Shown piece after piece: positions 1,483 to 19,728 of a stretch of 21,197 bases of DNA. Origin of the DNA: a virus; IMG/VR virus record IMGVR_UViG_3300009011_000472, positions 1-21,197 of that record; one strand, 5' to 3'. The first letter of the stretch is position 1. Every line of letters starts with the position of its first letter. Below the pieces are notes generated by a model that worked only from the letters and a program-made list of their open reading frames with translations, was not told where the DNA came from and did no database searches. The position numbers and the translations under genes were made by a program.

Positions 1483-2007
1483 AAAAAATCCTTCTTTTCG
1501 GGTCATTTGGCTGAAGATGATGACAGTGTTCATCGAGGTCGTCCAAACGAAGAAGCGATGCGCACTGAGGGGGATAAACACCATCGAAACCTGCTGTCAG
1601 CTTCCCGCGTAACAACCGTGCAGCCTGCTCGATGATGGATTGGTCGCACCAATTACCCTCCCCCAGCAAACAAAGGCTCTAAAGGCCGCTTGAAATCGCT
1701 TGTACCAGTTTCGTACCAATACCCTTCGCGCGCACTCAAATCGTGCCCCCCGCACCAATCTGATGTAGCAAATTTTTAGCAACCGTTTTCGGCTCCAATC
1801 ACAAGCACGGTCGCAGCACCGATACCTATTTTGCTCAACACCTTTATCGGTCTTGGCGTGCAGAGAATCCCGCACAGAACGAATTACAGACGTCATATAT
1901 AGCCACGTAATCGATTCAGAAACCTGAGATCGACGTAAATCTGTGATGAATGATGCCAATAAGACATCACTCTTGATATGCTGCACAAAACCACACAGAG
2001 AATCGAC
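1483..2007. other. Intergenic stretch between divergent cargo genes
   Basis: No convincing gene is seen. This stretch must hold the promoters of the leftward membrane-protein gene and the rightward unknown gene, but no clear -35/-10 pair stands out on either strand. GTACCA occurs twice, at 1702-1707 and 1713-1718. The copies start 11 bp apart, about one helical turn, and could be a small operator. The minus-strand frame at 1597-2034 has no family resemblance and overlaps the next gene, so it was left out. Confidence 0.4.
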
Positions 2008-2700
2008 ATGGCTGTCAATATTACTAAAATTCAATTTATGTCACATCGTGACACTGCCCACCCAATATTTTATTGCCATGCGCATGATGACGGCCATGCG
2101 CCCATGCTAGCAGTAACAACTGATGGGATTTCAATCTTCATCGAAGGTAGAAACTTACTGTTCAAGGTAAAAGCAAACCCCCAGACCAAAAACCGAATTG
2201 ATATATACATGCCCATCACATCAGCCAATCAGCTTGGTCGTGAACTAGTGGCAGCGACTCAAGGATCGTCAGCGAATCAATGGCGTGAATCTACAGCTTC
2301 CCCTGGTCAATTTGCATCAGGGAGAATGTCACTTCCAAATATAATTTGGAGCAAATTCGGCAAGACTATCCAAGCAGTCGCACGCGTTAATTCAGGAACG
2401 CAAATGACTAAACTGGATGCGTATGTGAATATTGATCTAGAAACACCGCATGGGTCTCATATAATGATGAGCGACACAGAAATCCATATTGGGATTTCAT
2501 TAGATAACCCAACTGGCACTCACAACACAGATCTCACGACGCCCGTGCATGTTCCCGAAATTGAATTGCAACGTGGCACTGCGGAAAGTAATCCGGTATC
2601 CAAAGTTGCAGGAGATTTTTCACTGAAATTTACAAAGGAAATAGCTGCCGGTCTAGGACAATTGTTGATTGGAACAGTTGCCGCAACGGCGATTCCTTAG
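2008..2700 (+). CDS. Unknown soluble protein
   Basis: The protein has 230 residues from the ATG at 2008; an alternative ATG at 1978 would add ten. Neither start has a strong ribosome-binding site (AGAGA lies about seven bases before 2008). The composition is of a soluble, beta-rich protein with many Thr, Asn, His and Ile and no clear transmembrane helix, though the last 25 residues (GLGQLLIGTVAATAIP) are mildly hydrophobic. A His-rich patch near residues 25-35 (YCHAHDDGHAP) could bind metal, but this is a guess. It stands alone between the membrane-protein gene and the restriction-modification gene and ends 144 bases before the latter. I do not recognise the family. Confidence 0.6.
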   Translation: MAVNITKIQFMSHRDTAHPIFYCHAHDDGHAPMLAVTTDGISIFIEGRNLLFKVKANPQTKNRIDIYMPITSANQLGRELVAATQGSSANQWRESTASPGQFASGRMSLPNIIWSKFGKTIQAVARVNSGTQMTKLDAYVNIDLETPHGSHIMMSDTEIHIGISLDNPTGTHNTDLTTPVHVPEIELQRGTAESNPVSKVAGDFSLKFTKEIAAGLGQLLIGTVAATAIP

Positions 2701-2843: not shown

Positions 2844-5567
2844 ATGCCGTTGTCATGGAACGAAATCCGGGATCGTGCTACAGCATTTGTTCGCGAATGG
2901 GAGACAGAGTCGTCTGAAGATGCGGAAGCCAAAAGCTTCTGGGATGCATTTTTCAATGTATTCGGTATTCCGCGGCGCCGTATCGCCCAGTTCGAAAAGC
3001 TTGTGCACAAGGCGAGTGGAAAAAACGGGTACATAGACCTCTTCTGGCCTGGCGTCATGCTGGCGGAACATAAGTCGAGAGGGAAAGATCTTTCCAGCGC
3101 CCATGATCAAGCCATTGATTATTTCCCGGGCCTTTCGGATAAAGAACTACCTCGTTACATCGTAGTCTCAGATTTCGCGCGTTTCCGACTGTACGACCTA
3201 GAGGCGGATACAGAATTCGAATTTCGTCTAGAGGAGTTACCACAACACATTACCGTATTTGGATTCATTGCAGGTTACGAAGCGAGGACGTTTCGCGAAC
3301 AAGATCCAGTGAACGTTGATGCTGCTGAACGTCTCGGAAAACTCCATGACAAGTTGTTTAATGTGGGTTATGAGGGACATCAGCTAGAGGTCTATCTCGT
3401 ACGCATTCTATTTTGTCTATTCGCGGACGATACCGGGATATTCATGCCCCGAGATGCGTTTGAGGATTTCATCCTAACGCGCACTAGTGTGGATGGCTCT
3501 GATCTCGCTGCGCGCTTAAATGAATTATTCGAGATCCTAAATACTCCCCCCAATAAACGCCTACGTAACCTAGATGAGCAACTTTCAGCATTTCCCTATA
3601 TAAACGGTAAGCTTTTTGAGGAGCATCTGCGCACCGCAAGCTTCGACCGTGAGATGCGAGATCTGCTCCTATGGTGCTGTGGCCTTGACTGGGGCACGAT
3701 TAGCCCAGCGATCTTCGGCTCGCTGTTTCAAGGCATAATGGATGCTAAAGTACGCCGTAACCTAGGTGCTCACTACACCAGCGAAAAGAACATTCTGAAG
3801 CTCATCTCGCCATTGTTCCTCGATGATCTGAAGGCCGAATATGAAAAGGTAAAGACTCAAACAACAAAGCTTCGGGCATTTCACGATAAGCTTGGCCGAC
3901 TTAACTTTTTCGACCCTGCTTGTGGCTGCGGCAACTTCTTGGTAATTACCTATCGAGAAATACGCTTGTTAGAGCTTGAGGTTATAAAACGACTCTATAA
4001 GCGTGATCAGCAACAGCTTTCGATGGATGCCGTATCGCACTATGTGAAAGTAGATGTCGATCAGTTCCACGGCATTGAAATCGAAGAGTGGCCAGTCCAA
4101 ATCGCTAGAGTGGCAATGTGGTTGATGGACCACCAAATGAACGTTTTAGTTGGGCAAACATTTGGGGATGCTCTTGTACGTATACCGCTGGTAAAATCAG
4201 CAAATATCGTGCACGGAAACGCTCTGCTCTTGGACTGGAATGATGTAATCCAGTCTAAAAACTGCAGCTTCATACTGGGTAATCCGCCGTTCATTGGCGC
4301 AAAAATGCTAAGCGACGATCAGCGCGATGCGATGAGTCTCGTATTAAACGGTATCAAAAATTCAGGTCTTCTTGATTTCGTTGCAGCGTGGTATATCAAA
4401 GCGGCTCAATACGCTACACCAGAAACAATGTGCGCCTTTGTATCTACTAATTCGATTACTCAAGGGGAGCAAGCGGGAGCTCTCTGGCAGGTAATGCTGA
4501 ACATGGGCATCAACATTCATTTCGCTCATCGGACATTTCAATGGCGAAATGAGGCCAAAGGAGTTGCCGCCGTACATTGCGTAATTATTGGCTTCAGCCA
4601 AGCGAAACCCTCGAAGCGAGTACTCTATGACTATCATGATATAAGGGGCGAACCTCAGGCAATTTCGGCTACTAACATCAATCCCTATCTGGTCGATGCA
4701 GCAGACGTGGTATTGCAAAATCGTACCAACCCTCTTTGCGATGTACCGAAGATAGGAATCGGAAACAAGCCCATCGACGGTGGTCATTATTTGTTTACCA
4801 CCGATGAGATGAAGGCGTTTATCAAGAGTGAACCACAGTCGAAAAAATGGTTTCGTCGCTGGATAGGTTCAGAGGAGTTTATCAATGGATTTGAGCGTTG
4901 GTGTCTCTGGCTCGGTGAGTGCACGCCGCAGGAGCTACGTGCTATGCCTATGGCATGCGAACGTATTAAAAAAGTTCGGGAAACTCGATTGGCCAGCAAA
5001 AGTCCGCCGACCCGCAAGCTCGCCGATACTCCTACTCGTTTCCATGTCGAAAACATGCCTAAGGGCACTTACTTAGTAATTCCTGAGGTTTCTTCCGAGC
5101 GCCGGCAGTTCATACCCATTGGGTTCGAGAAACCCGAGACAATGGCAAGTAACTTAGTAAAAATTATGCCCAATGCAGGAATATTTCACTTTGGAATATT
5201 GAACTCAACCATGCACAACGCTTGGATGCGTAACGTATGCGGGCGTCTGAAATCTGACTATCGGTACTCGGTGGGAATTGTATATAACAACTATCCATGG
5301 CCAAGGAACATTACACAACAACAGCATCTATCAATTGAAAATGCAGCCGATAGCATCCTTGTAACGCGCGCCAAATATACGGACTCTTCACTCGCCGACC
5401 TTTATGATCCGCTTACCATGCCGCCAGAGTTAATCAAAGCACACCGAAACTTAGACCGTGCTGTCGACTTAGCTTATGCGAATTCTGGCGGAAAGAAAAT
5501 TTGGAGTTCTGATGCAGAGCGAGTTGCCTTTTTATTTGAACAATATATTGAACTAACAGATCTTTAA
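2844..5567 (+). CDS. Single-chain Type IIL (MmeI-like) restriction-modification enzyme
   Basis: The protein has 907 residues, close to MmeI (about 919). One chain carries nuclease, helical linker, adenine methyltransferase, target recognition and C-terminal domains. The nuclease motif is intact: D65, nine residues, E75-x-K77, the same D-x9-ExK spacing as MmeI. The methyltransferase shows motif X-like GAHYTSEKNI (308-317), motif I DPACGCGNF (357-365) and motif IV NPPF (480-483), the gamma-class N6-adenine order. The stretch from about 620 to 830 is expected to be the recognition domain. Family members methylate one strand of an asymmetric site and cut about 20 bases away, using the same recognition domain for both, so no separate specificity subunit is needed. 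AGGA lies ten bases before the ATG. Next to att and cos in a prophage, it most likely protects the lysogen from other phages. No frameshift is visible. Confidence 0.92.
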   Translation: MPLSWNEIRDRATAFVREWETESSEDAEAKSFWDAFFNVFGIPRRRIAQFEKLVHKASGKNGYIDLFWPGVMLAEHKSRGKDLSSAHDQAIDYFPGLSDKELPRYIVVSDFARFRLYDLEADTEFEFRLEELPQHITVFGFIAGYEARTFREQDPVNVDAAERLGKLHDKLFNVGYEGHQLEVYLVRILFCLFADDTGIFMPRDAFEDFILTRTSVDGSDLAARLNELFEILNTPPNKRLRNLDEQLSAFPYINGKLFEEHLRTASFDREMRDLLLWCCGLDWGTISPAIFGSLFQGIMDAKVRRNLGAHYTSEKNILKLISPLFLDDLKAEYEKVKTQTTKLRAFHDKLGRLNFFDPACGCGNFLVITYREIRLLELEVIKRLYKRDQQQLSMDAVSHYVKVDVDQFHGIEIEEWPVQIARVAMWLMDHQMNVLVGQTFGDALVRIPLVKSANIVHGNALLLDWNDVIQSKNCSFILGNPPFIGAKMLSDDQRDAMSLVLNGIKNSGLLDFVAAWYIKAAQYATPETMCAFVSTNSITQGEQAGALWQVMLNMGINIHFAHRTFQWRNEAKGVAAVHCVIIGFSQAKPSKRVLYDYHDIRGEPQAISATNINPYLVDAADVVLQNRTNPLCDVPKIGIGNKPIDGGHYLFTTDEMKAFIKSEPQSKKWFRRWIGSEEFINGFERWCLWLGECTPQELRAMPMACERIKKVRETRLASKSPPTRKLADTPTRFHVENMPKGTYLVIPEVSSERRQFIPIGFEKPETMASNLVKIMPNAGIFHFGILNSTMHNAWMRNVCGRLKSDYRYSVGIVYNNYPWPRNITQQQHLSIENAADSILVTRAKYTDSSLADLYDPLTMPPELIKAHRNLDRAVDLAYANSGGKKIWSSDAERVAFLFEQYIELTDL

Positions 5568-6402: not shown

Positions 6403-6495
6403 GACGCGCGCCGATATGGCCGCCAGTTAGATATGATGTCCATTACGGAACCACACAGACGGAGTGGGGGCTTAGATGAGTACAGGAGGCTAAAT

Positions 6496-6993
6496 ATGCG
6501 AAATGATAAAAAACGAGAGCTTCGAGCTTACATCGCTCATATGAAACGAGACGCTTTAATAGGGCTGTTTCTCGGTTTCATTCCCGCGATTGCCCACTCT
6601 TCTGGAGATAGAGAGTTTAGCGAATTAACAAAAACGCTTCTGACCAGTGCTTGGTTTACGGACTATTACGGATACCTATTTTCCATTTTCATGCTACTAG
6701 CCGCACTCAAAAAAATGGTGCGATTCGGTGAAGAATGGGCGCAACGATGGATGAATAACATTTTCAAATTTACTGCTGAAGTAGGCACAAGTCTTTCAAC
6801 AGCTTTGAGAACGGGATTCGGAGTAATCCTGGGTTTTTTATGCACATGGAGCATTGTTGAGCCCCACACACTAACCAACAGTAATTTCTTGGGCACGTCC
6901 ATTTTAGCTCTAATGACACTAATGTTATCTGCGTTCATATCTTATGTTCAGGCTATGCTCATTTCTGGTTTTCGGTCACCTGATCCTAGTTAG
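6496..6993 (+). CDS. Unknown small membrane protein, four predicted helices
   Basis: The protein has 165 residues. The ATG at 6496 follows AGGAGG by six bases, the best ribosome-binding site in this part of the window. Longer in-frame readings from 6334 would run through cos and are rejected. A basic cytoplasmic start (MRNDKKRELR) is followed by hydrophobic stretches at about 20-34, 55-73, 104-121 and 131-156. The soluble loops are short, and both ends are probably cytoplasmic. I recognise no family. As the first gene right of cos and convergent with the nuclease-like gene, it occupies the place of the cytotoxin gene in phiCTX. A role in superinfection exclusion or as a membrane partner of a defence system is possible but unproven. 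Confidence 0.7.
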   Translation: MRNDKKRELRAYIAHMKRDALIGLFLGFIPAIAHSSGDREFSELTKTLLTSAWFTDYYGYLFSIFMLLAALKKMVRFGEEWAQRWMNNIFKFTAEVGTSLSTALRTGFGVILGFLCTWSIVEPHTLTNSNFLGTSILALMTLMLSAFISYVQAMLISGFRSPDPS

Positions 6994-7208: not shown

Positions 7209-8645
7209 CTAGCCAATTAAATCCATAAATTTACTACGAAGCAAACTATAATCCAAAGCACCGATTTCTTTTTCCCTTTCATCCACCAGCGCAAAAACAT
7301 CATTATCGTCCAATGCTATTATATAACCCCTCGAGTCATTCGCCGTATCTTTACATCTAGCTGACAAACGAACTTTATCTTCAACTGTCCTGCAGGTTAG
7401 TATACCTACAGTCCCCCGACTTGGCGAAAACCGTCCAGATAATTGATCCACCTCTGGATTACCGACTTCTTTACCATAATTTTTACATTCCACGAATATC
7501 AAAGATGACGGGTAATGTAGACCTATCCAATAGAAAAACCCGTTTTTAGCTTCATTGGTATAAGTAATATCTATCCGCTTACGTCCATTATGTATATTGT
7601 GCTGTTTTTTCGGATTGGCCAGAGAAGGATAAAAGATAGCTGAAAATATTTTCTCAATGACTTTTTCATAATCGCCCGCGCCTTCATTACCCGGGAGAAT
7701 CGCTTTTAACTCAGACTTAAGCGAATTCCAATCAGGTTTATCCCCCCCTTCAATCTCGGCAATATCTTCATGACTAAGTGGTAGAGGACTCTTATCTCTT
7801 TTAGCCACCCTATAGTCCTCTAATGCATGAGGATGTTTTAGCGTCATATTAACAACAGCCAATTTATCCTTACCATATTTTTCCATCAGAGCTTTTTTAG
7901 TTACTCGCTCACTACCATCCTTTAAAACTTCAACCAGCGGCGTGTGCGCTTTTAACTCCGATCGTTGCATTTCCGGTAACAAAAAATGCCTATAATATTC
8001 GTCAACCCGATATGATAGTTTCTGCCTAACCAAGAGCTTAGGAACAAAAATTATTTTCCCAAATTTCCCTGCTACAGGGAGTGTGACAAAGCTATTCTCC
8101 CACGCGCCCTCGACAGGATTCCAAATTGGACCAGATACAACACCAGAACTCATAGGGATATCATAATATACGCACATATCTTGCGTATATTTAATAAGAG
8201 GCCCACGTAATATATTACTAACCGCATCAGAAATCATATCGGGCCCAACGCCTTCAATCAGAAGACATGTGTCTTCCAAGTCCTCCAAAAGGCCAGTCAA
8301 AGAAGCATTACTTTTAAATAATGCCCCCCACACACTTTCTGCAGACTTCGCTCCAAACGCATGACCTTGGGATTTCCCCCGCGAGTACCCCAGATGAAAC
8401 TCATTACGCTCACTAAGAGACGCCAGCAATGCTTGCGCTACACTATGTTTTCCATTTTTTATGTAGCTCAAAACGGTTTCAAAAAAACTTTGAAGCAAAG
8501 AGGATAGTTCATTTCCCCAAGGAGACTGTAACGACTTTATGGCTGTGGGGTCTAAAAAAATAGGAATATCTGTGTCTAATTTCACATCTACGAAATCCAA
8601 CTGAGACTGATTCCGACCCAACTTGTAAAATTTCGAAATATGCAT
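7209..8645 (-). CDS. PD-(D/E)XK nuclease-like protein, probable restriction/defence effector
   Basis: The protein has 478 residues from the ATG at 8645. The upstream site is weak, but the opening HISKFYKLGRNQSQLDFVDV is typical of related hypothetical proteins I remember. The first 300 residues are an unassigned domain (IFLDPTAI at 30-37; acidic and Lys-rich stretch 240-300). The C-terminal part carries a PD-(D/E)XK core: an early Glu (E331), RID (D359), a long beta hairpin, VECKNY (E386, K388), then QLSGRF (Q401-F406), the helix that often follows the ExK strand. Such folds cut DNA in restriction, repair and anti-phage enzymes. There is no methyltransferase beside it, so it would need to sense infection or modified/foreign DNA through its N-terminal domain. 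The gene is AT-rich, alone, leftward, and bracketed by similar hairpins: a clear cargo insertion between cos and Q. Confidence 0.75.
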   Translation of the reverse strand: MHISKFYKLGRNQSQLDFVDVKLDTDIPIFLDPTAIKSLQSPWGNELSSLLQSFFETVLSYIKNGKHSVAQALLASLSERNEFHLGYSRGKSQGHAFGAKSAESVWGALFKSNASLTGLLEDLEDTCLLIEGVGPDMISDAVSNILRGPLIKYTQDMCVYYDIPMSSGVVSGPIWNPVEGAWENSFVTLPVAGKFGKIIFVPKLLVRQKLSYRVDEYYRHFLLPEMQRSELKAHTPLVEVLKDGSERVTKKALMEKYGKDKLAVVNMTLKHPHALEDYRVAKRDKSPLPLSHEDIAEIEGGDKPDWNSLKSELKAILPGNEGAGDYEKVIEKIFSAIFYPSLANPKKQHNIHNGRKRIDITYTNEAKNGFFYWIGLHYPSSLIFVECKNYGKEVGNPEVDQLSGRFSPSRGTVGILTCRTVEDKVRLSARCKDTANDSRGYIIALDDNDVFALVDEREKEIGALDYSLLRSKFMDLIG

Positions 8646-11591: not shown

Positions 11592-11638
11592 GGCTGCGAT
11601 GCTGCCGCCCAGACCCACGACTCAATAGCACCGCCCCT

Positions 11639-11657
11639 TGTGCCCTCCCCGCCTACA
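11639..11657. promoter_or_regulatory. Candidate late-activator (Ogr-type) site upstream of gene O
   Basis: The 19-base pattern TGTnnCCTCCnnnCCTACA occurs here, between the divergent P and O genes, and again at 19090-19108 upstream of V. Both leaders begin late operons in P2. P2 late promoters carry an Ogr-binding dyad ending in TGT and ACA with 12 bases between; here the spacing is 13. The site is centred 83 bases before the O start, leaving room for a promoter. No good -35 box is seen, as expected for activator-dependent promoters. Confidence 0.35.
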
Positions 11658-11730
11658 GTCCCGCCTCGTTGCCGCCACCTGCGCGCGACCCGACCATGCC
11701 CCTCATTGCAACGCACTGAGCATTCCCGGT

Positions 11731-12561
11731 ATGAAGAAATTTCGCAGCAATTGGTTCCGCGTCGCCGTCGAAGGCGCGACCTCGGACAAACGCACCATCA
11801 AACGCGACTGGCTGGAACAGGCCGCGAAGAACTTCAACCCGTCCACCTACGGCGCCCGCATCTGGCTGGAGCATTTCCGCAGCCTGCTGCCGGACAGCCC
11901 GTTCAAGGCTTACGGCGACGTCCTCGCGGTGAAGACCGAAGAAATCGATATCAATGGCCAAAAGAAACTGGCCCTGTTCGCCCAGGTCGAGCCCACCCTC
12001 GAACTGATCGCCATGAACAAGGCCAAGCAAAAGATCTACACATCAATCGAAATCGACGACAGCTTCGCCGACACCGGGGAGGCCTACATCGTCGGCCTAG
12101 CGGTGACCGACTCGCCTGCCAGCCTCGGAACCGACGTACTCGCGTTCTCAGCGCAGAAGCCCGACGTCAGCCCCTTCAAAGACCGGCACTACTCCGCAAC
12201 CTCGATGTTCACCGAGGCCGTCGAAGCCGAGCTGACATTCGAAGAGTTTGAAGAAAAGCCCAGCCTCGGCGCCCAGCTCTTCAGCAAGGTGCAAACCCTG
12301 CTCAAAGGCAAACAGGCCAAGGATGACAGCGAGTTCGCCCAGATCGGCCAAGCCGTCGAAACCCTCGCCGAACACGTCAAAGACTTGCCCGACCAACTGG
12401 CCGCGGAGAAACAGTTTTCCGCAGAACTGAAAACGCAGCTCGACCGGTTGGCCAAGGACTTCACCGAACTGAAAACCAAGCTCTCGACCACCCAGGACCA
12501 CAACCAAAAGACACGCCCTCCCGTCACTGGCGGCGGAAACCAGGTCATGACCGACTGCTGA
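11731..12561 (+). CDS. O: Capsid scaffold and maturation protease (P2 gpO family)
   Basis: The protein has 276 residues from the ATG at 11731 (P2 gpO 284). The upstream extension to 11638 lacks family resemblance. P2 gpO is a serine protease with Asp19, His48 and Ser107. Here D19 and H48 are at the same positions, and S105 (KIYTSIEI) falls where the serine is expected. The C-terminal part from about 205 to 255 is Leu-, Glu- and Lys-rich and should form the coiled-coil scaffold. In the family it guides gpN assembly inside the prohead, cleaves gpN, gpL and Q N-termini and finally itself. It is the first gene of the rightward head operon and ends 17 bases before N. Confidence 0.95.
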   Translation: MKKFRSNWFRVAVEGATSDKRTIKRDWLEQAAKNFNPSTYGARIWLEHFRSLLPDSPFKAYGDVLAVKTEEIDINGQKKLALFAQVEPTLELIAMNKAKQKIYTSIEIDDSFADTGEAYIVGLAVTDSPASLGTDVLAFSAQKPDVSPFKDRHYSATSMFTEAVEAELTFEEFEEKPSLGAQLFSKVQTLLKGKQAKDDSEFAQIGQAVETLAEHVKDLPDQLAAEKQFSAELKTQLDRLAKDFTELKTKLSTTQDHNQKTRPPVTGGGNQVMTDC

Positions 12562-12578
12562 CACCAAGGACGACTTCC

Positions 12579-13589
12579 ATGCGCAACGACACCCGCAACC
12601 TCTTCAACGCCTACCTCGGCCAATTGACCAAACTGCACGGCGTCCCCGACGTCACCACCAAATTCGCCACCGCCCCCAGCGTCACCCAGACACTGGAAAC
12701 CCGCATGCAGGAATCCAGTCAGTTCCTCAGCGCGATCAACATCTACGGCGTCACCGAACAGATGGGCGAGAAGATCGGCATGGGCATCGGCGGGCCGAAC
12801 GCCGGCACCACTGACACCACCCAGAAAGACCGCGAAACCACCGACATCACCACCCTCGATGATCGCGGCTACTTCTGCTCGCAGACCAACTTCGACACCC
12901 ACCTGCGTTACAGCAAACTGGATGCCTGGGCCAAATTCCCCGACTTCCAGGCACGCATTCGAGACGCGATCCTCAAGCGCCAGGCGCTGGACCGCATCCT
13001 GATCGGCTGGAACGGCACCAGCCGCGCCGTCACCTCAAACCCGGCGACCAACCCACTGCGCCAGGACGTCAACATCGGCTGGCTGCAAAAAATGCGCACC
13101 GAAAACGCCGCGCGGGTGATGAAGGAAATCGCTGAAGGCTCGGGCAAAATCGCCATCGGCGCCGGCAAAGACTTCACTAACCTCGACGCCCTGGTGTTCA
13201 GCATGGTCGAAGAGTTCATCGCGCCCTGGTACCAGGAAGATCCAGACCTGGTGGTGATCTGCGGCCGCCAACTGCTGGCCGACAAATACTTCCCGATCAT
13301 CAACAAGGACAACGCCCCGAGCGAGATCCTCGCCGCCGACATCGTCACCAGCCAGAAACGCCTGGGCAACTTGCCGGCGGTGCGCGTGCCGTACTTCCCG
13401 GCACGTGGGCTGCTGGTGACCAAGCTCGAAAATCTGTCGATCTACTGGCAGGAAGGCAGCCGCCGCCGGACCGTTCTCGACAACGCCAAGCGCGACCGCA
13501 TCGAAAACTACGAATCGGTCAACGACGCCTACGTGATCGAGGATTTGGAATGCGCCGCTCTCGCTGAAAACATCGAAATTGCATCCTGA
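12579..13589 (+). CDS. N: Major capsid protein (P2 gpN family)
   Basis: The protein has 336 residues (P2 gpN 357, before N-terminal processing). It builds the T=7 shell with the HK97-type fold. The N-terminus (RNDTRNLFNAYLGQLTKLHG) is the typical start of the family; TETRM/QESSQFL at 40-52 and the aromatic-rich GYFCSQTNFDTHLRYSKLD near residue 97 are further marks. AAGGA stands about nine bases upstream of the ATG. The gene follows the scaffold gene by 17 bases and precedes the small terminase by 11, a tight GC-rich operon. The first 30 or so residues are probably removed by gpO, as in P2. Confidence 0.96.
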   Translation: MRNDTRNLFNAYLGQLTKLHGVPDVTTKFATAPSVTQTLETRMQESSQFLSAINIYGVTEQMGEKIGMGIGGPNAGTTDTTQKDRETTDITTLDDRGYFCSQTNFDTHLRYSKLDAWAKFPDFQARIRDAILKRQALDRILIGWNGTSRAVTSNPATNPLRQDVNIGWLQKMRTENAARVMKEIAEGSGKIAIGAGKDFTNLDALVFSMVEEFIAPWYQEDPDLVVICGRQLLADKYFPIINKDNAPSEILAADIVTSQKRLGNLPAVRVPYFPARGLLVTKLENLSIYWQEGSRRRTVLDNAKRDRIENYESVNDAYVIEDLECAALAENIEIAS

Positions 13590-13600
13590 GGCAGACGACC

Positions 13601-14299
13601 ATGACCAATCCCTGCCGTCATCACTTCCTGCGGGTCACGGCCGCCATTGAAGCCGCCGCGGTCGAACCCAACCAAACCATGGCCGGCGCGACCGCCTACG
13701 AACATCAGCTCAACCAGCTGCTGCAGGATCGCCTGCGCCTTAAACAGATCCAGTCGAATCAGGGCAAGGCTGAACTCAAACGCCAACTGCTCCCTGATTA
13801 CGTGCCCTACGTGCAAGGCGTGCTGGAAGCCGGGCTCGGTGCTCAGGATGAAGTGCTGACCACCATCATGGTCTGGCGTTTCGATGCCGGCGACTTCAGC
13901 GGTGGCCTCGACATCGCGCAATACGTGCTGAAGCACAAGATGGTCATGCCGGATCGCTTCGCTCGCACGTTGGGCTGCCTGGTTGCCGAAGACATCGCCA
14001 CGGCAGCATTGAGCGCCCAGAAGGTCAGCGAATCGTTCGACTTGACCACGCTGCATCGAGCCGCCGAATTGACCGACACCGAAGACATGCCCGACCAGGC
14101 CCGCGCCAAGCTGTTCCTCGCCATGGGTCGCGCCACTCTGGAAGGCCTCACCGAAGAACTAACCGGCCAACCTGGTCAAGTTCAGGCCGGCATCGACCTG
14201 CTGAAAAAAGCCATCGAACTGCACGACGCCTGCGGTGGCAAAAAAGATTTGGAGCGAGCCGAACGCCTGCTCAACAAACTCGCCGCCACTGGCGGCTAA
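13601..14299 (+). CDS. M: Small terminase subunit, endonuclease-associated (P2 gpM family)
   Basis: The protein has 232 residues (P2 gpM 247). It pairs with gpP to recognise and cut cos. Family marks are the N-terminal NPCRHHFLRV, the Gln/Leu-rich helical stretch at 30-62 and the conserved DEVLTTIMVWRFDAGDF near residues 82-99. GAGG lies about nine bases before the ATG. The late C-terminal part (190-230) is helical and charged. It sits between N and L, as in P2. About 100 bases separate it from L, with no gene in the gap. Confidence 0.94.
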   Translation: MTNPCRHHFLRVTAAIEAAAVEPNQTMAGATAYEHQLNQLLQDRLRLKQIQSNQGKAELKRQLLPDYVPYVQGVLEAGLGAQDEVLTTIMVWRFDAGDFSGGLDIAQYVLKHKMVMPDRFARTLGCLVAEDIATAALSAQKVSESFDLTTLHRAAELTDTEDMPDQARAKLFLAMGRATLEGLTEELTGQPGQVQAGIDLLKKAIELHDACGGKKDLERAERLLNKLAATGG

Positions 14300-14402
14300 C
14301 CGAGCGTCCCCACGCACCCCGCCGGCTCGGGGCGGATCGGCCAGGCCACGAGCCTGAACGTGAAGCCACGACCACCGGCGACCTATTGCAGAGTGCAGCG
14401 CA

Positions 14403-14864
14403 ATGAGCGGATTCATCGCGGGCGGCAAGGCCCCCACCGGCCACATCAACACCGACCCATTCTGGCCGTCGATCAATCTGGACGACGTGCGCGGCACGCT
14501 GAGGATCGATTCCAGCGTCACCGCGATCCGGCTGGAAACCGCGACCATCGCCGCCGCCATTAGCGTCAACCGCGAGCTCGCCGAGTGGCGCCGGACCCAA
14601 CAGGCCGACGGCTACACCACCCTCACCGACGTCCCCACCGATCGGGTCAAAAACGTATCGCAGTTCGTCCACCTGTACCAACGGGCGATCTATGCCGCGA
14701 CCGGTGCAGAAATCTGTGAGCGCTACCGCTCCTACGACAGCACCAACAGCGGCCACCAGAACGCCGACGACCTCACCCCCAGCATCGACGAACTGCGCCG
14801 CGACCAGCGTTGGGCCGTGCGCGACTTCCTCGGCCTCGGCCGCACCACCGTGGAGTTGATCTGA
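14403..14864 (+). CDS. L: Head completion/stabilisation protein (P2 gpL family)
   Basis: The protein has 153 residues (P2 gpL 169). It closes the filled head and prepares it for tail joining. The N-terminal FIAGG and the FWPSINLDDVRGTLRID stretch (20-36) are typical, as is the C-terminal LRRDQRWAVRDFLG. The ATG has only a weak ribosome-binding site, so reinitiation after M across the 103-base gap or a message-internal site may serve it. The stop codon TGA overlaps the ATG of X by one base (TGATG), showing translational coupling. Confidence 0.92.
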   Translation: MSGFIAGGKAPTGHINTDPFWPSINLDDVRGTLRIDSSVTAIRLETATIAAAISVNRELAEWRRTQQADGYTTLTDVPTDRVKNVSQFVHLYQRAIYAATGAEICERYRSYDSTNSGHQNADDLTPSIDELRRDQRWAVRDFLGLGRTTVELI

Positions 14865-15076
14865 TGGTCGTCACCGTTCGCGCCCAGCAAAACGACACCG
14901 TCGATGCCCTCTGCTGGCGACATTACGGCCGCACCGCTGGCGTAACCGAAAACGTACTTGACGCCAACCCCGGGCTGGCCGACCACGGACCGACATTGCC
15001 CCAGGGCCTGGCCGTGCAAATGCCCGAAACACAAACCGCCGCCCCGCAAAGGCAAATGGTGAACCTATGGGACTGA
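14864..15076 (+). CDS. X: Tail protein X, LysM-like (P2 gpX family)
   Basis: The protein has 70 residues (P2 gpX 67). The start was set at 14864 by overlap with the L stop and by family length; a longer in-frame reading from 14810 lies inside L. The repeat-like VTVRAQQNDTVDALCWRHYG followed by a short Pro-rich hinge is the LysM-type module of gpX, which is needed for tail formation and may touch peptidoglycan or the tail hub. The tail end is QRQMVNLWD, a common ending in the family. It is the last gene before the lysis cassette. Confidence 0.92.
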   Translation: MVVTVRAQQNDTVDALCWRHYGRTAGVTENVLDANPGLADHGPTLPQGLAVQMPETQTAAPQRQMVNLWD

Positions 15077-15113
15077 CCCATTGCAACCACGCCTAGACCA
15101 AGGAAGGATACAC

Positions 15114-15428
15114 ATGCCCGAACGCCCCGACACCTGGGCCTGGCTCGCCGCTTGGCTCGAACAACACTGGCCGACCCTATACGCCGGCCTCCTGGCCCTG
15201 ATCATCGCCGCCCTTCGAATCATGTACGGCGGTGGCACTTGGCGCCGTATCGCCATCGAAGCCCCGCTCTGCGGCGCCTTGGCATTGGCCGCCAGCCATG
15301 GCCTTCCGTTACTCGGTGTTTCCGCGTCCACCGCGCCCTTTTTTGGTGGCATCATCGGCCTGCTCGGCGTGGAAGGAACCCGCGCTGCAGCAAGGAAACT
15401 TTTCATTCGCAAGGAAGCCTCACGATGA
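15114..15428 (+). CDS. Holin-like lysis protein
   Basis: The protein has 104 residues from the ATG at 15114, preceded by AAGGAAGGA; a TTG at 15081 is rejected. Hydrophobic segments lie at about 20-37, 48-66 and 72-87, and the C-terminus is short and basic (RKLFIRKEASR), the usual layout of a class-I-like three-helix holin. It sits directly before the lysozyme gene and overlaps its start by four bases (ATGA). Assignment rests on position and topology, since holins share little sequence. It would open the inner membrane to release the muramidase. Confidence 0.85.
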   Translation: MPERPDTWAWLAAWLEQHWPTLYAGLLALIIAALRIMYGGGTWRRIAIEAPLCGALALAASHGLPLLGVSASTAPFFGGIIGLLGVEGTRAAARKLFIRKEASR

Positions 15429-16267
15429 TTTCATTACGTCACGGCGACCGCTCGCAAGCGGTGCGCCACCTGCAAACCACCCTGAACAACAACGGCGCTC
15501 GCCTGATCGTTGACGGGCACTACGGCGACACCACTGAAGCGGCCGTACGTGCCTATCAGCTGAGCATTGGTCTGGTGGCCGATGGCATCGCCGGTCCCAA
15601 AACACAGGCAGCGCTCGCCGGCAATGACTGCCAGCAACTGCTGAAAAACGTCGACCTGGTCAATGCCGCACAACGCCTCGACGTGCCGCTGGCTGCCGTC
15701 TACGCGGTCAACGAAGTCGAGTCGAAGGGCATGGGTTTTCTCGACATCGGCAAGCCAGTGATTCTGTTCGAACGTCACATCATGTACCGCCAGCTTTCGA
15801 AAGTTCGCCACGAAAGCGATAACCCTGCCGACCTTAAACGCCGCGCCGATCAACTCGCCGCCGCTCACCCAACCATCGTCAACCCGAAAGCCGGTGGCTA
15901 CGTCGGCGGTAGCGCTGAACATCAGCGGCTCGGTAGCGCCCGTGTACTTAACGACGTTGCCGCCCTGGAGTCCGCTTCCTGGGGCGCCTTCCAGATCATG
16001 GGGTTTCACTGGAAGCGCCTGGGCTATGTCGGCGCGCAAGACTTCGCCGCAGCCATGAGCACAAACGAATCGCAGCAGTTCGATGCGTTCGTACGCTTCA
16101 TAGAAACCGACCCGGCTTTGTACAAGGCATTGAAGGCACGCAAATGGGCCGAGTTTGCCAAGCTCTATAACGGGCCGGACTATCAGCGAAACCTGTACGA
16201 CATCAAGCTCCAACGCGCCTACGAGCGGCATGAGAACTGCGGTTGTGGTCAGTTGGTGGCCGCATGA
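15425..16267 (+). CDS. Endolysin: peptidoglycan-binding domain plus N-acetylmuramidase
   Basis: The protein has 280 residues from the ATG at 15425. Residues 5-65 form a PG_binding_1 domain (SLRHGDRSQAVRHLQ, then DGHYGDTTEAAVRAYQ and GIAGPKTQAAL). From about 80 to the end lies an N-acetylmuramidase of the DUF3380 type, with candidate catalytic acids in VNEVESKG (E97 and E99), the ILFERHIMY segment and ESASWGAFQIMG at 182-193. There is no signal peptide, so export depends on the holin. It cuts glycan strands at the end of infection. The start overlaps the holin stop by four bases. A longer reading from 15152 in the same frame lies opposite no evidence and is discarded. Confidence 0.93.
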   Translation: MISLRHGDRSQAVRHLQTTLNNNGARLIVDGHYGDTTEAAVRAYQLSIGLVADGIAGPKTQAALAGNDCQQLLKNVDLVNAAQRLDVPLAAVYAVNEVESKGMGFLDIGKPVILFERHIMYRQLSKVRHESDNPADLKRRADQLAAAHPTIVNPKAGGYVGGSAEHQRLGSARVLNDVAALESASWGAFQIMGFHWKRLGYVGAQDFAAAMSTNESQQFDAFVRFIETDPALYKALKARKWAEFAKLYNGPDYQRNLYDIKLQRAYERHENCGCGQLVAA

Positions 16268-16329
16268 TCCGCTACGCCAACGCTTATCTACAAATCAGCT
16301 CCGCAGGCCGCTATGAACAAACCCGATAG
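16264..16329 (+). pseudogene. 21-codon reading frame where a spanin gene is expected; possible remnant
   Basis: ATGA at 16264 overlaps the endolysin stop and opens a 21-codon frame, MIRYANAYLQISSAGRYEQTR, ending at 16329 inside gene R. In most relatives an Rz-like spanin of roughly 150 residues starts here; only 45 bases separate the endolysin stop from the R start. It may be a leader left by a deletion that helps ribosomes reach R, or mere chance. No hydrophobic anchor or coiled coil of an Rz protein remains. Confidence 0.3.
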
Positions 16330-16789
16330 CCTGCGCACTCATCTGCTAGCCACCATTGCCGAACTCAAGCACAACCCTGACCGGTTGTTGATCTTCATCG
16401 ACAATGGAAAGGTTCGCTGCACCGCTGCGGCGAGCCTATCGTTCGAATACAGCTTCGACCTGCAGATCATCCTGACCGACTTCGCCGGCCACCCCGACAG
16501 CGTCATGCTGCCGCTTCTCGGTTGGTTAAGCGTGCATCAGTCTGAGTTGCTTGAGAACCTGAGCAAGTCCGCCGACGGCATCCGGTTCGAGGCGGATATT
16601 CTCGACAACAGCAAAGTGGATATGAGTTTGACGCTGCCACTGACTGAGCGTGTGGTGGTGGGCAAGGACGAAGAAGGCAACATCACCATCCGCCATCCTG
16701 GTGAACCGCAACAAGTCGCCGCATTTCTTGACCCTGACTGGATACCCGTCACCTGTGCCAATGGTACCGAATGGGTGGTGCCTCAATGA
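16313..16789 (+). CDS. R: Tail completion protein R (P2 gpR family)
   Basis: The protein has 158 residues (P2 gpR 155). It is needed to finish the tail so that it can join the head. The opening NKPDSLRTHLL, the LSFEYSFDLQIILTDFAGHPDSVMLPLL-type core around residues 42-70 and FEADILDNSKVD near 93-104 are the family signature. The gene begins 45 bases after the endolysin stop and overlaps the start of S by four bases (ATGA). Codon use is slightly less GC-biased than in the head genes, but no break is seen in the frame. Confidence 0.93.
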   Translation: MNKPDSLRTHLLATIAELKHNPDRLLIFIDNGKVRCTAAASLSFEYSFDLQIILTDFAGHPDSVMLPLLGWLSVHQSELLENLSKSADGIRFEADILDNSKVDMSLTLPLTERVVVGKDEEGNITIRHPGEPQQVAAFLDPDWIPVTCANGTEWVVPQ

Positions 16790-17256
16790 CCAATCAACTG
16801 GAAGCACTAGAAGACTGGGCTGCCGGTTTGCTCGGGCAACTTGAGCCGTTAGCGCGAAATCGGCTCGCCCGCAGTCTTGGCCAAGCACTGCGCCGTAGCC
16901 AGCAGCAACGAATTATGTCCCAGTGCAACCCTGAAGGCAGCAAGTACGTGCCGCGTCAACAGCGCAATCTGCGAGTAAAGCAAGGACGAGTGAAGCGGGA
17001 GGTTCAGATGTTTCAGAAGCTGCGCACTACCAGATTTTTGAGGGTTCGGGGCGACGACAATGCAGCCAGCGTTGGATTCACTGGTCGCATTGCCCGCATT
17101 GCTCGAGTACATCAGTATGGTTTGAAAGATCGAGCGGAGACTATCGCCCCTCCTGTAAGATATAACAAAAGAAAACTAATCGGACTCACTCACACCGACA
17201 TCGTTATAGTACGAGACAAACTACTTACACACCTCAGCAACGAAACAGCAGCTTAG
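16786..17256 (+). CDS. S: Tail completion protein S (P2 gpS family) with an AT-rich 3' end
   Basis: The protein has 156 residues from the ATG at 16786 (P2 gpS about 150); ATGA overlaps the R stop. Family features are TNQLEALEDWAAGLL at the start, the RQQRNLRVKQGRVKR region and GFTGRIARIARVHQYGL near 105-121, which belong to the phage virion morphogenesis family. After codon 120 or so the base composition drops sharply: hand counts of G+C are 36/60 at 17041-17100, 30/60 at 17101-17160 and 22/60 at 17161-17220. The protein still ends as expected (RKLIGLTHTDIVIVRDKLLTHL), so the gene looks functional but its last 35 codons appear to have come with the cargo that follows. Confidence 0.92.
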   Translation: MTNQLEALEDWAAGLLGQLEPLARNRLARSLGQALRRSQQQRIMSQCNPEGSKYVPRQQRNLRVKQGRVKREVQMFQKLRTTRFLRVRGDDNAASVGFTGRIARIARVHQYGLKDRAETIAPPVRYNKRKLIGLTHTDIVIVRDKLLTHLSNETAA

Positions 17257-17309
17257 ATAACACCCAGGCACTACCAACTAAAAAATGCAACTTAGGAAAG
17301 CAAAAAAAA

Positions 17310-18041
17310 ATGGAGCAATTATGGACAAATATAATCACCTCGGGAGCTACCATTGGAGCTCTAATCAGTTCTTTGGTAGCTTTGTTTACGCTGCGAGAAA
17401 TGAGGGCTCAACGTGTACACTCATACAAACCTGAGATTGCGATACCAGAAGTATGCTTTAACTACACCAATGAATTTCCTAACTATATTAGAATATGGAC
17501 TACAGACGATAAAGAACCATTAAAACTAAAAATACATAACATCGGTCGTGGCGTTGCAAAAAACATTAAGTTTGAATGGGAATACGACATCGTAAAAATG
17601 ATAGAAAGATTCTATCTACTCCGTACAAGCGAAGGCCATGAAATAAATCTAGATATATCCGGAGACCGATTGACATACACGGAATCGGGAGTCATAAAAT
17701 CGGGCGGAGGCATCACCAGCGACAATACCAGCTTGGATTTCATGCTAGCGGCGGAGACAAATATCGAAGGTCATCTTCTTGACCTCCCAATGACCTACAT
17801 AACTATCAGCACTTCCATCTACAAATATTCAGACCCTAGAAAAATATTTAATCTTGAAAACTATAACGAAGGACTAGAACCTCTACATCTAAAAATATCA
17901 TATGAAGACATCGGGGGTGCAATTATGACAAAATCGTACGATATCGACATTAAATTTTTCCTAAAAAGCCTCAATCGCTACAACCCTTCAAACAATAAAA
18001 TAAACACACTACGAGGACGAATCTATGTAAACCACAATTAA
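17310..18041 (+). CDS. Unknown membrane-anchored protein with beta-rich soluble domain
   Basis: The protein has 243 residues. GGAAAG stands about ten bases before the ATG. One hydrophobic helix (about 8-27, IITSGATIGALISSLVALF) followed by basic residues (REMRAQR) gives an N-out/C-in anchor, so the rest should be cytoplasmic. Residues 40-225 look like beta sandwiches (LKLKIHNIGRGVAKNIKFEW at 71-90, the kind of strand pattern seen in immunoglobulin-like folds). The G+C content is low (22/60 at 17641-17700). It lies between S and V, where P2 carries the non-essential orf30, and is convergent with the DUF2971 gene. I know no function; a role in protecting the lysogen is a position-based guess. 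Confidence 0.75.
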   Translation: MEQLWTNIITSGATIGALISSLVALFTLREMRAQRVHSYKPEIAIPEVCFNYTNEFPNYIRIWTTDDKEPLKLKIHNIGRGVAKNIKFEWEYDIVKMIERFYLLRTSEGHEINLDISGDRLTYTESGVIKSGGGITSDNTSLDFMLAAETNIEGHLLDLPMTYITISTSIYKYSDPRKIFNLENYNEGLEPLHLKISYEDIGGAIMTKSYDIDIKFFLKSLNRYNPSNNKINTLRGRIYVNHN

Positions 18042-18060
18042 AAAAATGAAGTAGATCACC

Positions 18061-18100
18061 AAAAGAGGTGGCACCACTATCGATGCCACTAGCTTTTTTT
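18061..18100. terminator. Likely bidirectional intrinsic terminator between convergent cargo genes
   Basis: GTGGCA (18068-18073) pairs with TGCCAC (18084-18089). The stem extends imperfectly outward through an A-rich and a T-rich flank, ending in seven T at 18094-18100 on the plus strand. Read leftward, the tail is TCTTTT, so the hairpin can also stop leftward transcripts. It begins about 20 bases after the stop of the rightward anchored-protein gene and lies about 70 bases beyond the stop of the leftward DUF2971 gene. Confidence 0.7.
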
Positions 18101-18167
18101 CATATATCACGATAAGAGGCCCGCCTTAACTTCACTAATCTCGCGGTGATTTCTTCGAAGCCGACAT

Positions 18168-19031
18168 TCAACGATCCCTAGCAGAGCTTACCGCTTCAAT
18201 ATCCAAACTGTAATGAGTCGGATGAATTTTAGCCTGATAGAACTTAACATGTTCAAAACCGTCTACTGAGGACATTTTTTGAATTATCGCTCCTGAAAAA
18301 ATCTCCGGCATTTTGGAGCCAAAAACAATCGACCTAATCGCTTCTTTCGGAACCTCAAACAAATAAATTACATCATCAGAAACTTCAACTGTTTTATTCG
18401 CCCCGCTCAAAGGGAGCAACATCCTCCACTCCGCCTCATAACTCCAGTGGTTGCTTTTGGTAAGAAAAACATCTTCATCAGTTGCTTGAGACAGAGTAAT
18501 GGCTGGCCGCTCCTCACTATAGTGCACCTTGCGTATTTCTCTCAAACTATCCTTAACGCCAATTTTTCGATGAAAAAAACTGGAATCTGAATCAAATTCA
18601 ACTACGAATCCTTTATGCGAGTCTGCATAGTGGGCCCACATCAAAAGATCGTCACACTTTTCCGACAAACAAAATATCCCAATGCTCTCATTCGCACGTC
18701 CAAATAGCATCGATTGCGCATGCGGCGCTACTATCTCCATCAGTTCTTGACCACGCCCCTTACAATCAAGCATAAATGAGCTCATGAATTTTTGAAAATC
18801 CTCCTTTATAACTATCGCCCTAACATCAGAGTCAAGCGCCTCGTACGCATCTGTAAAGTCTTGCGCTGCTGCAATATCCATAGACGCATCGAACTCTTCA
18901 GGCGTTTTAATAGAGTGGATATTTGGCAAAAACTCAAACGGATCATTGAATGCAGCTGGTTGCGAAAATCGAATCAAACGATCTTCAAGAACAGCCATTC
19001 TCGCTGGACCGAAATACTTAAACAATCGCAT
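18168..19031 (-). CDS. DUF2971 family protein
   Basis: The protein has 287 residues from the ATG at 19031, with AAGG about nine bases upstream. Family marks are FNDPFE (28-33), GIFCLSEKCDDLLMWAHYAD (118-137) leading into HKGFVVEFD (139-147), VHYSEERP (169-176) and the motif NHWSYEAEWRML (194-205). DUF2971 proteins are soluble and common in prophages and genomic islands; their reaction has not been settled as far as I know. The conserved His, Tyr, Trp, Glu and Arg residues suggest an enzyme rather than a structural protein. It is leftward, against the surrounding late operon, and so can be expressed in the lysogen. It is convergent with the anchored protein; whether they work together is unknown. 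Confidence 0.8.
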   Translation of the reverse strand: MRLFKYFGPARMAVLEDRLIRFSQPAAFNDPFEFLPNIHSIKTPEEFDASMDIAAAQDFTDAYEALDSDVRAIVIKEDFQKFMSSFMLDCKGRGQELMEIVAPHAQSMLFGRANESIGIFCLSEKCDDLLMWAHYADSHKGFVVEFDSDSSFFHRKIGVKDSLREIRKVHYSEERPAITLSQATDEDVFLTKSNHWSYEAEWRMLLPLSGANKTVEVSDDVIYLFEVPKEAIRSIVFGSKMPEIFSGAIIQKMSSVDGFEHVKFYQAKIHPTHYSLDIEAVSSARDR

Positions 19032-19089
19032 GCTTACAACCTTGCAAAGTTATTGAATGAAACATAATACTATCCTTTAGTACCTCATC

Positions 19090-19108
19090 TGTATCCTCCT
19101 GACCTACA
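19090..19108. promoter_or_regulatory. Candidate late-activator (Ogr-type) site upstream of gene V
   Basis: This is the second copy of TGTnnCCTCCnnnCCTACA, 14 fixed positions shared with 11639-11657. It lies between the leftward DUF2971 gene and the rightward tail operon, where P2 has its V promoter. It is centred 57 bases before the V start, so with the P2 spacing (about 55 before the transcript start) the leader would be almost absent. A -10-like TAAAGT at 19131-19136 would give a somewhat shorter distance. Activity is uncertain. Confidence 0.35.
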
Positions 19109-19155
19109 ACCTACCGACCCTGCATCGCGGTAAAGTTGGTGCCAACATCGGCATC

Positions 19156-19728
19156 ATGAACGACTTAGCCGCCCTCGCCCGCCTGATCGAAAACCTCATC
19201 CGCCTCGGCACCATTGCTGCCGTCCAGATAACCCCCCCGCGTGTGCAGGTCAAAACCGGATCGCTCACCACCGCCTGGCTTCCATGGATCGCCGCTAAAG
19301 CCGGCGCCGACCGCGAGTGGAACCCGCCCACCGAGGGCGAACAAGTCATCCTGTTCAGCCCCTCCGGCCAGCTCGGCAACGGCGCCGTCCTGGCCGGTTT
19401 ATTCAGTGAGCACGTCCCGGCCAACGGCGACCGCGAAGGCCTGCACCGCTGTACCTACCGCGACGGCGCTGTGATCGAGTACGACAGCATCGCGCACCAC
19501 CTGAATGTCGTGCTGGCTGAAGGCGGTACCACCAATTTGGTCAGCCAAGGCGGTATCCACATCGTCGGCCCAATCACCCATGAGGGCGACTACACCCAAA
19601 CCGGCAACCAAACCATCACCGGCAAAATCACCGTCTCGGTGGATGTAGTCGCAGCCAACATCAGCCTGGTCAAACACCCCCACGGCGGTGTCATATCTGG
19701 CGGCGGCATCACAGGCCAGCCGCAATGA
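19156..19728 (+). CDS. V: Baseplate spike protein (P2 gpV family)
   Basis: The protein has 190 residues (P2 gpV 211). A trimer forms the membrane-piercing tip under the tail tube. The N-terminal LIENLIRLGTI helix matches the P2 start (P2 MNTLANI... versus MNDLAAL here), followed by an OB fold (TAWLPWIAAKAG at 39-50, NPPTEGEQVILFSPSG at 56-71, FPDGAVIEYD-type strand at 101-110). The C-terminal beta-helix ends with HPH (174-176) and GGV, the HxH pair that holds iron at the apex in P2-like spikes. No strong ribosome-binding site precedes the ATG. The ATGA at 19725 overlaps W. Confidence 0.94.
   Translation: MNDLAALARLIENLIRLGTIAAVQITPPRVQVKTGSLTTAWLPWIAAKAGADREWNPPTEGEQVILFSPSGQLGNGAVLAGLFSEHVPANGDREGLHRCTYRDGAVIEYDSIAHHLNVVLAEGGTTNLVSQGGIHIVGPITHEGDYTQTGNQTITGKITVSVDVVAANISLVKHPHGGVISGGGITGQPQ

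Follow-up and report, generated by a model that had tools for sequence, protein, structure and literature searches.

A DUF2971 gene and a predicted membrane-anchored neighbour between genes S and V of a P2-like phage are most likely unrelated cargo genes

P2-like phages carry acquired genes in three regions, one of which is orf30 (as described in the parts of PMC3091744 and PMC6823313 that were available). The late promoters of P2 contain the sequence TGT-N12-ACA, and separate promoters serve the ONMLKRS and the VWJIHG genes, according to the available part of PMC3931495. Among enzymes of phage defence, CmdTAC is presented in the accessible text of PMC11618068 as a three-component system with an mRNA ADP-ribosyltransferase, and the corresponding part of PMC9503650, a survey of viral ADP-ribose proteins, names KptA as a member of the ADP-ribosyltransferase superfamily and contains the term DUF2971 zero times. 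In the literature searched, the term DUF2971 occurs in one paper, and we found no report of an experimentally tested activity for any DUF2971 protein, no printed link between DUF2971 and ADP-ribosylation, and no mention of PDC-S31 or PF11185.

Here we report an analysis of the space between the tail gene S and the baseplate gene V in a virus record of 21,197 bases, the whole of which is called the window. The window phage is P2-like and close to Pseudomonas phages. The IMG/VR contig 3300025735_000027 is taken as the same population, and not as an independent witness, because it is identical to the window over 7,888 compared bases. Open reading frames and Pfam matches define the interval under study, 17257-19155, as the exact S-V space: gene S, for tail completion (16771..17256, + strand; Phage_tail_S PF05069, E 4.2e-35), ends at 17256, and gene V, for the baseplate (19156..19728, + strand; Phage_base_V PF04717, E 1.9e-12), starts at 19156. 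By analogy with P2, S would close the O...S late operon and V would open the next one. Two genes lie between them. Gene A (17310..18041, + strand) encodes a phrog_7259-like, presumably membrane-anchored protein of 243 aa, and gene B (18168..19031, - strand) a DUF2971 protein of 287 aa that is a candidate PDC-S31. Their GC contents are 38% and 42%, respectively, against 61% in the late genes at 11638-16789. A preliminary description of this DNA had recognized two AT-rich genes facing each other as cargo at the P2 orf30 position, and both statements are borne out: the S-V cargo has the features of P2 orf30 morons, namely location between S and V, AT-richness, and replacement by unrelated genes in relatives.

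A and B converge on a single hairpin between their stops (18068..18089), which folds better than shuffled sequences (z -2.46 on the + strand and -2.08 on the - strand) and is followed by a T-rich stretch on each strand. A simple terminator scan of 16900-19400 gave 3 sites against a chance mean of 2.5, that is, no excess. The earlier idea of one shared terminator agrees with the fold and its flanks and gains nothing from the scan; we regard the hairpin as a probable bidirectional terminator. Gene A is co-directional with S and begins 53 bp downstream of it, and may be read from the late operon ending with S. A scan for sigma70-like promoters gave two sites, both on the - strand inside B, with a chance expectation of 3.9. 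The proposal that both genes are expressed independently of the late genes is not supported by these observations; A and B might be expressed in a lysogen.

The left end of the window looks like a second cargo area. It encodes a Type IIG restriction-modification protein with MmeI domains (2844-5567, + strand; PADLOC REase_MTase_IIG, 1225 bits) and a candidate defence protein PDC-M36A (7209-8645, - strand; phrog_27295, E 6.1e-178), in which Mrr_cat is a weak match below the cut-off. The ORFs at 325-1584 (- strand), 1978-2700 (+ strand) and 6418-6993 (+ strand) have no significant match in Pfam, PADLOC or NCBIfam, and the first two have none in PHROGs either.

Upstream of V there is a dyad, TGTA-N11-TACA (19090..19108, + strand), which is probably an Ogr-type late-activator box. 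Its outer part, TGT-N13-ACA, was found 65-67 bp before V in 75 of 75 loci, comprising the window and the 74 loci holding S and V among the best 80 of 546 identified by a V scan, while single-base shuffles gave 2.6 on average and never more than 6 of 75; the N12 spacing occurs before V in none of these 75 loci. The inner bases of the box vary, and next to its outer part the A is conserved in 69 and the T in 68 of the 75 loci. The box is also present in Dobby, Sirocco, L016, L097, L099 and L033, and there is no N13 box at that place in L126 and L136, which belong to another P2 group. A one-mismatch copy at 11639-11657 was rejected, the window having five matches with at most one mismatch against a shuffle mean of 3.7, which is the chance level. 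The box before V is best described as a probable late promoter with an Ogr-type activator box of the V operon. Since P2 has separate ONMLKRS and VWJIHG late promoters, the S-V space would be, by analogy, the boundary of two late operons, and a V operon with its own probable late promoter would explain why cargo is tolerated there.

The same 74 S-V intervals of close relatives (from the best 80 of 546 loci) were used for a census of cargo, defined as ORFs of at least 60 aa. Cargo is present in 73 of them, and the S-V gap of L313 is only 61 bp. The 98 cargo ORFs, which were called mechanically and of which a few are probably spurious, form 41 families by single-linkage blastp; some intervals are copies, L242/L243 and L262/L265 being identical over the compared stretch and L260/L261 at 99.97%. 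DUF2971 occupies three of the 74 intervals (L237, which is the contig of L005, L252 and L278), and A occupies none. Ten intervals have genes on both strands, and in nine of these (L239, L242, L243, L256, L271, L280, L289, L307 and L309; the exception is L250) a + gene lies by S and a - gene by V (binomial p 0.02, or 8 of 9 with p 0.04 when the copy L243 is removed; L256 and L271 are 89% identical). Convergence seems to be a recurrent trait of the S-V site itself. Within this sample of the best 80 loci, family F3 on the + strand is accompanied by F4 on the - strand in three intervals and by F35 (DUF3800, - strand) in one, stands alone in one, and keeps other company in L250 and L307; F4 (FRG, PDC-S15) is alone on the - strand in three intervals, and F1 (DUF4145) on the + strand is alone in ten and accompanied by F17 on the - strand in two. 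PADLOC models matched four of ten scanned cargo proteins (PD-T7-4, PDC-S15, PDC-S45 and PDC-S31). That S-V receives acquired genes was already known; the two-place convergent layout comes from this census.

Several individual intervals of the census deserve description. Family F7 is found at S-V in L276, L282, L284 and L297 among the best 80 loci, and its scanned member, from L276, matches PD-T7-4 (E 4.1e-82). The S-V interval of L278 has on its - strand an FRG gene (F4), a gene for a 196-aa protein different from A, and a DUF2971 gene that belongs to another subfamily. In phage Dobby, the S-V protein matches neither PADLOC nor PHROG.

B matches PF11185 with 45.4 bits (E 2.1e-11; gathering score 22) and PDC-S31 over residues 3-279 with 155.4 bits (E 5.6e-46). 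Matches to phrog_1762/DUF2971 were found in 70 of the 298 genomes sampled from the genus Pseudomonas, and phage records contributed three DUF2971 records, none of them P2-like. An alignment scan supplied the best 80 of 390 genomic and the best 80 of 268 viral DUF2971 loci, leaving 159 records when the window twin L096 is set aside. S and V are both present in 21 of these 159, several of which are near-copies, and in all 21 the DUF2971 gene lies between S and V on the opposite strand, at most 67 bp from S. A search with phmmer detected no relative of A in the 159 records, and the 21 S-V intervals have no room for it. When a two-sequence profile of A was applied to 199 records (DUF2971 is present in 197, and some contigs are represented twice), it recovered only L176, one of the profile's own two sequences.

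In a quick tree, B falls into a clade of five labelled 99* together with L005, L097, L016 and L006, all of which reside at S-V, the other four without A. In these four relatives the DUF2971 stop is -4, +1, +13 and -14 bp from the S stop, compared with 911 bp for B in the window. On the tree, residence at S-V requires three changes of label, consistent either with repeated arrival or with a single gain and two losses; among the 16 rows with the S-V label, L033 shows V and no S. Because the nearest relatives of B sit at S-V without A and with their stops close to S, we infer from tree and spacing that A, together with the hairpin, probably arrived after B.

The preliminary description of A as a membrane-anchored protein with a putative beta domain is consistent, as to the anchor, with its one hydrophobic segment, which lies at the N terminus (residues 8-26; Kyte-Doolittle 1.96) and is followed by a net charge of +3. 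A has no Pfam match above the cut-off and no PADLOC match; its phrog_7259 profile match (E 7.5e-18) and the hydrophobic stretch assign it to that family. Six relatives were identified outside the window population, in the genomes G036 and G934, in phage LLS (gp31) and on the IMG/VR contigs L210/L317, L316 and L318, and a seventh, in G505, is a weak and partial match. The N-terminal stretch is present in A and all six relatives with values from 1.31 (the weakest, LLS gp31) to 2.79, and the net charge is 0 to -2 on its N-terminal side and +3 to +4 on its C-terminal side. Owing to the positive-inside rule, these flanking charges predict an N-out/C-in topology with the globular part in the cytoplasm. 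A further hydrophobic window, near residue 160, is seen in the L210 and L316 relatives.

Genome samples, which may overlap and were scanned by family or by alignment, yielded relatives of A in 1 of 298 (Pseudomonas genus, G036), 1 of 369 (G505), 1 of 398 (G934), 0 of 244 and 0 of 6 genomes. In tblastn searches, A of the window had no match in phages or plasmids, the G036 and G934 relatives had none in plasmids, and the L210 relative had none in phages; the G036 relative retrieved only LLS from phages, and LLS gp31 retrieved only itself; blastn of LLS gp31 against complete E. coli genomes was negative. The relative lies directly behind an integrase gene in LLS, L316 and L318, which are not independent cases because their integrases are 83-88% identical. 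On the P2-like contig L210 it is, by eye, preceded by baseplate and tail-fibre genes and followed by no other gene. Positions behind integrases and at S-V fit a lysogenic-conversion gene, and such a function may apply to A. In G036, genes that by eye are PAAR-like and effector/immunity-like (L213, 6200-10418) are found beside the relative of A and a DUF2971 gene.

The conjecture that B is an ADP-ribosyltransferase predates any fold search, and the motif logic of these enzymes is general background. Across 122 DUF2971 proteins the residues N29, D30, L130, M131, W132, Y135, G141, Y171, K192, W196, E199, E201, R203 and G238 are invariant, with E199 and E201 (the ExE motif) and also R203 unchanged in 122 of 122. 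A structure model built from these 122 sequences has a mean pLDDT of 96.1 (a first model from only 7 sequences was poor, at 67.6); it contains long helices at 44-116, and E201 starts a strand. VIA-align, applied to the 441 PDB chains ranked highest by Foldseek, placed in its first six rows DarT (7omy, Z 7.2; 7yk3, 7.0), Tpt1 (7yw4, 6.5), DarT1 (8baq, 5.7), 8htf (5.7) and 8htd (5.0), that is, three protein families of one superfamily, with the best row outside it at 4.9, values below 8 that may mean a common arrangement only. We take 8htf and 8htd, a Chromobacterium effector, to be CteC, the mono-ADP-ribosyltransferase of entry 8ux2 in the same table. These results agree with the earlier suggestion that DUF2971 proteins may be enzymes, and are no more than suggestive of an ADP-ribosyltransferase-like fold.

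Foldseek returned nothing at E <= 0.001 for the B model in PDB or BFVD, and a DUF2971 sequence search against PDB chains gave nothing below E 0.15. Profile comparisons of DUF2971 were not significant with DarT (hhalign P 0.25 and 0.19; reversed DarT 0.30) or with Tpt1 (P 0.52 or 0.41); because the unrelated V profile outscores DarT (P 0.02), such profiles say nothing on the enzyme class of B. In a weak profile alignment at low threshold, the first strands and a C-terminal P-x-x-x-I are in register and the two glutamate motifs are out of register. B has only PF11185, and the DarT family PF14487 is absent among the families listed (25 of 55) for the 122 members.

On balance, we lean slightly towards B being an ADP-ribosyltransferase. 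B could be an enzyme of some other kind or a binding protein, with a different fold, and possibly still a defence or exclusion gene, as the Z values all below 8 and the lack of significant Foldseek or profile matches would allow; we consider this possible but less probable, given that the best-aligned chains belong to one superfamily, that nearly the whole model is covered (1-268 on DarT 9-205), that the conserved ExE stands at a strand start in the model, and that the divergent DUF2971 protein of L176/L213 starts with LYHYCSAETFLAICTGKKIRFS, similar by eye to LYHGSATRFLDAISMEGL from a Tpt1 gene and to LVHFTRLKNLDGILEHGI from a DarT gene. The purpose of the two genes is a separate matter: they might serve against satellites or for host fitness and not against phages, inasmuch as the sole sign of a defence role for B is the candidate label PDC-S31, yet other cargo at S-V matches the PD-T7-4, PDC-S15 and PDC-S45 models, and we think such roles unlikely.

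Whether A and B form a pair was judged from their co-occurrence. The preliminary description had favoured a sensor/effector arrangement, and a functional two-gene system would have effector B checked or targeted by membrane-anchored A, the two being kept convergent. Such a system would account for the only relative of A in 298 Pseudomonas-genus genomes: in G036 (L176/L213) it lies tail-to-tail with a DUF2971 gene, 171 bp apart (PF11185 E 3.8e-12), although this DUF2971 protein differs greatly from B (E 6.5e-6 with the B profile). The probability of at least one such neighbour among six relatives by chance is 0.07-1.4%, a crude estimate that counts 95 DUF2971 places, some of them pieces of one gene, and assumes 5,500 genes per genome. 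L278 offers a partial parallel, in which the 196-aa protein adjoining DUF2971 at S-V has, by eye, a hydrophobic N-terminal region. However, the pair is absent from all 21 other S-V records with DUF2971 (best 80 of 390 and best 80 of 268 loci), including the nearest relatives of B, which persist without A, and from all 74 S-V intervals (best 80 of 546), where convergent layouts with exchanged partners recur. It is likewise absent from the five other relatives of A: G934 has no DUF2971 gene within 18 kb, and the DUF2971 profile found nothing on L209, L210, L212, L316, L317 and L318, although two contigs (L210/L317 and L318) stop next to A and a single integrase module is common to three cases. 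A comparison of DUF2971 with the A family by hhalign gave nothing. The proposed link between A and DUF2971 fails at S-V loci and survives in one of six relatives of A, and we judge a two-gene system distinctly improbable. Less probable still, in our view, is that DUF2971 is a hitherto unrecognised and very widespread DarT/Tpt1-type branch of the ADP-ribosyltransferases, composed of stand-alone phage-defence effectors, with phrog_7259 as a facultative regulator or tether, placed beside different DUF2971 subfamilies at least twice. The other option of the preliminary description, two independent morons, fits these counts: A and B are most likely ordinary morons and unrelated passengers, and their separate acquisition in an S-V hotspot is the explanation of the whole that we favour, with moderate confidence.

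Under separate acquisition, one late operon would end with S and the next would start at V with its own activator box, and genes inserted between them need not break late transcription. B would have arrived first, beside V and reading against the late genes, and A with its hairpin would have been inserted later between S and B. B would be an NAD+-using, ADP-ribosyltransferase-like effector with a DarT/Tpt1-type fold and an invariant ExE, and could protect the lysogen against other phages by modifying nucleic acid or protein. A would be anchored in the inner membrane, with its globular part in the cytoplasm, and would act alone. Bacteria use some ADP-ribosylating enzymes against phages, and DUF2971 may add a new branch to these enzymes; this provides a candidate enzyme class, open to test, for a large family of undescribed reaction. 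The S-V sites of this phage's relatives are a place to look for defence genes, and the convergent neighbours there are a warning against reading such genes as one system.

In comparison with known systems, the locus resembles the P2 orf30, or S-V, moron region in its place between S and V and in its unrelated replacements in other phages (as far as covered by the available parts of PMC3091744 and PMC6823313), and differs in the two convergent genes of the window. With the cos-proximal and fun hotspots of P2 it has in common the exchangeable defence cargo of P2-like phages (PMC9122126 and PMC9519451, available parts), whereas these lie at other positions, and 'orf30' has no occurrence in the available text of PMC9122126. 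B matches the PDC-S31 model and, above its cut-off, the DUF2971 (PF11185) model, PDC-S31 being the label of a candidate defence gene only. The predicted fold of B, as aligned by VIA-align, is similar to DarT (PF14487) and Tpt1/KptA (PF01885), and a conserved glutamate that begins a late strand may be a common feature; in contrast, B has no significant profile match to them and has the long helices, and the S-V interval of the window has no DarG-like gene. CmdTAC, in the accessible main text of which (PMC11618068) 'DUF' has no occurrence, consists of three components whereas B stands alone; the class of enzyme, and perhaps the abortive logic, would be common to both.
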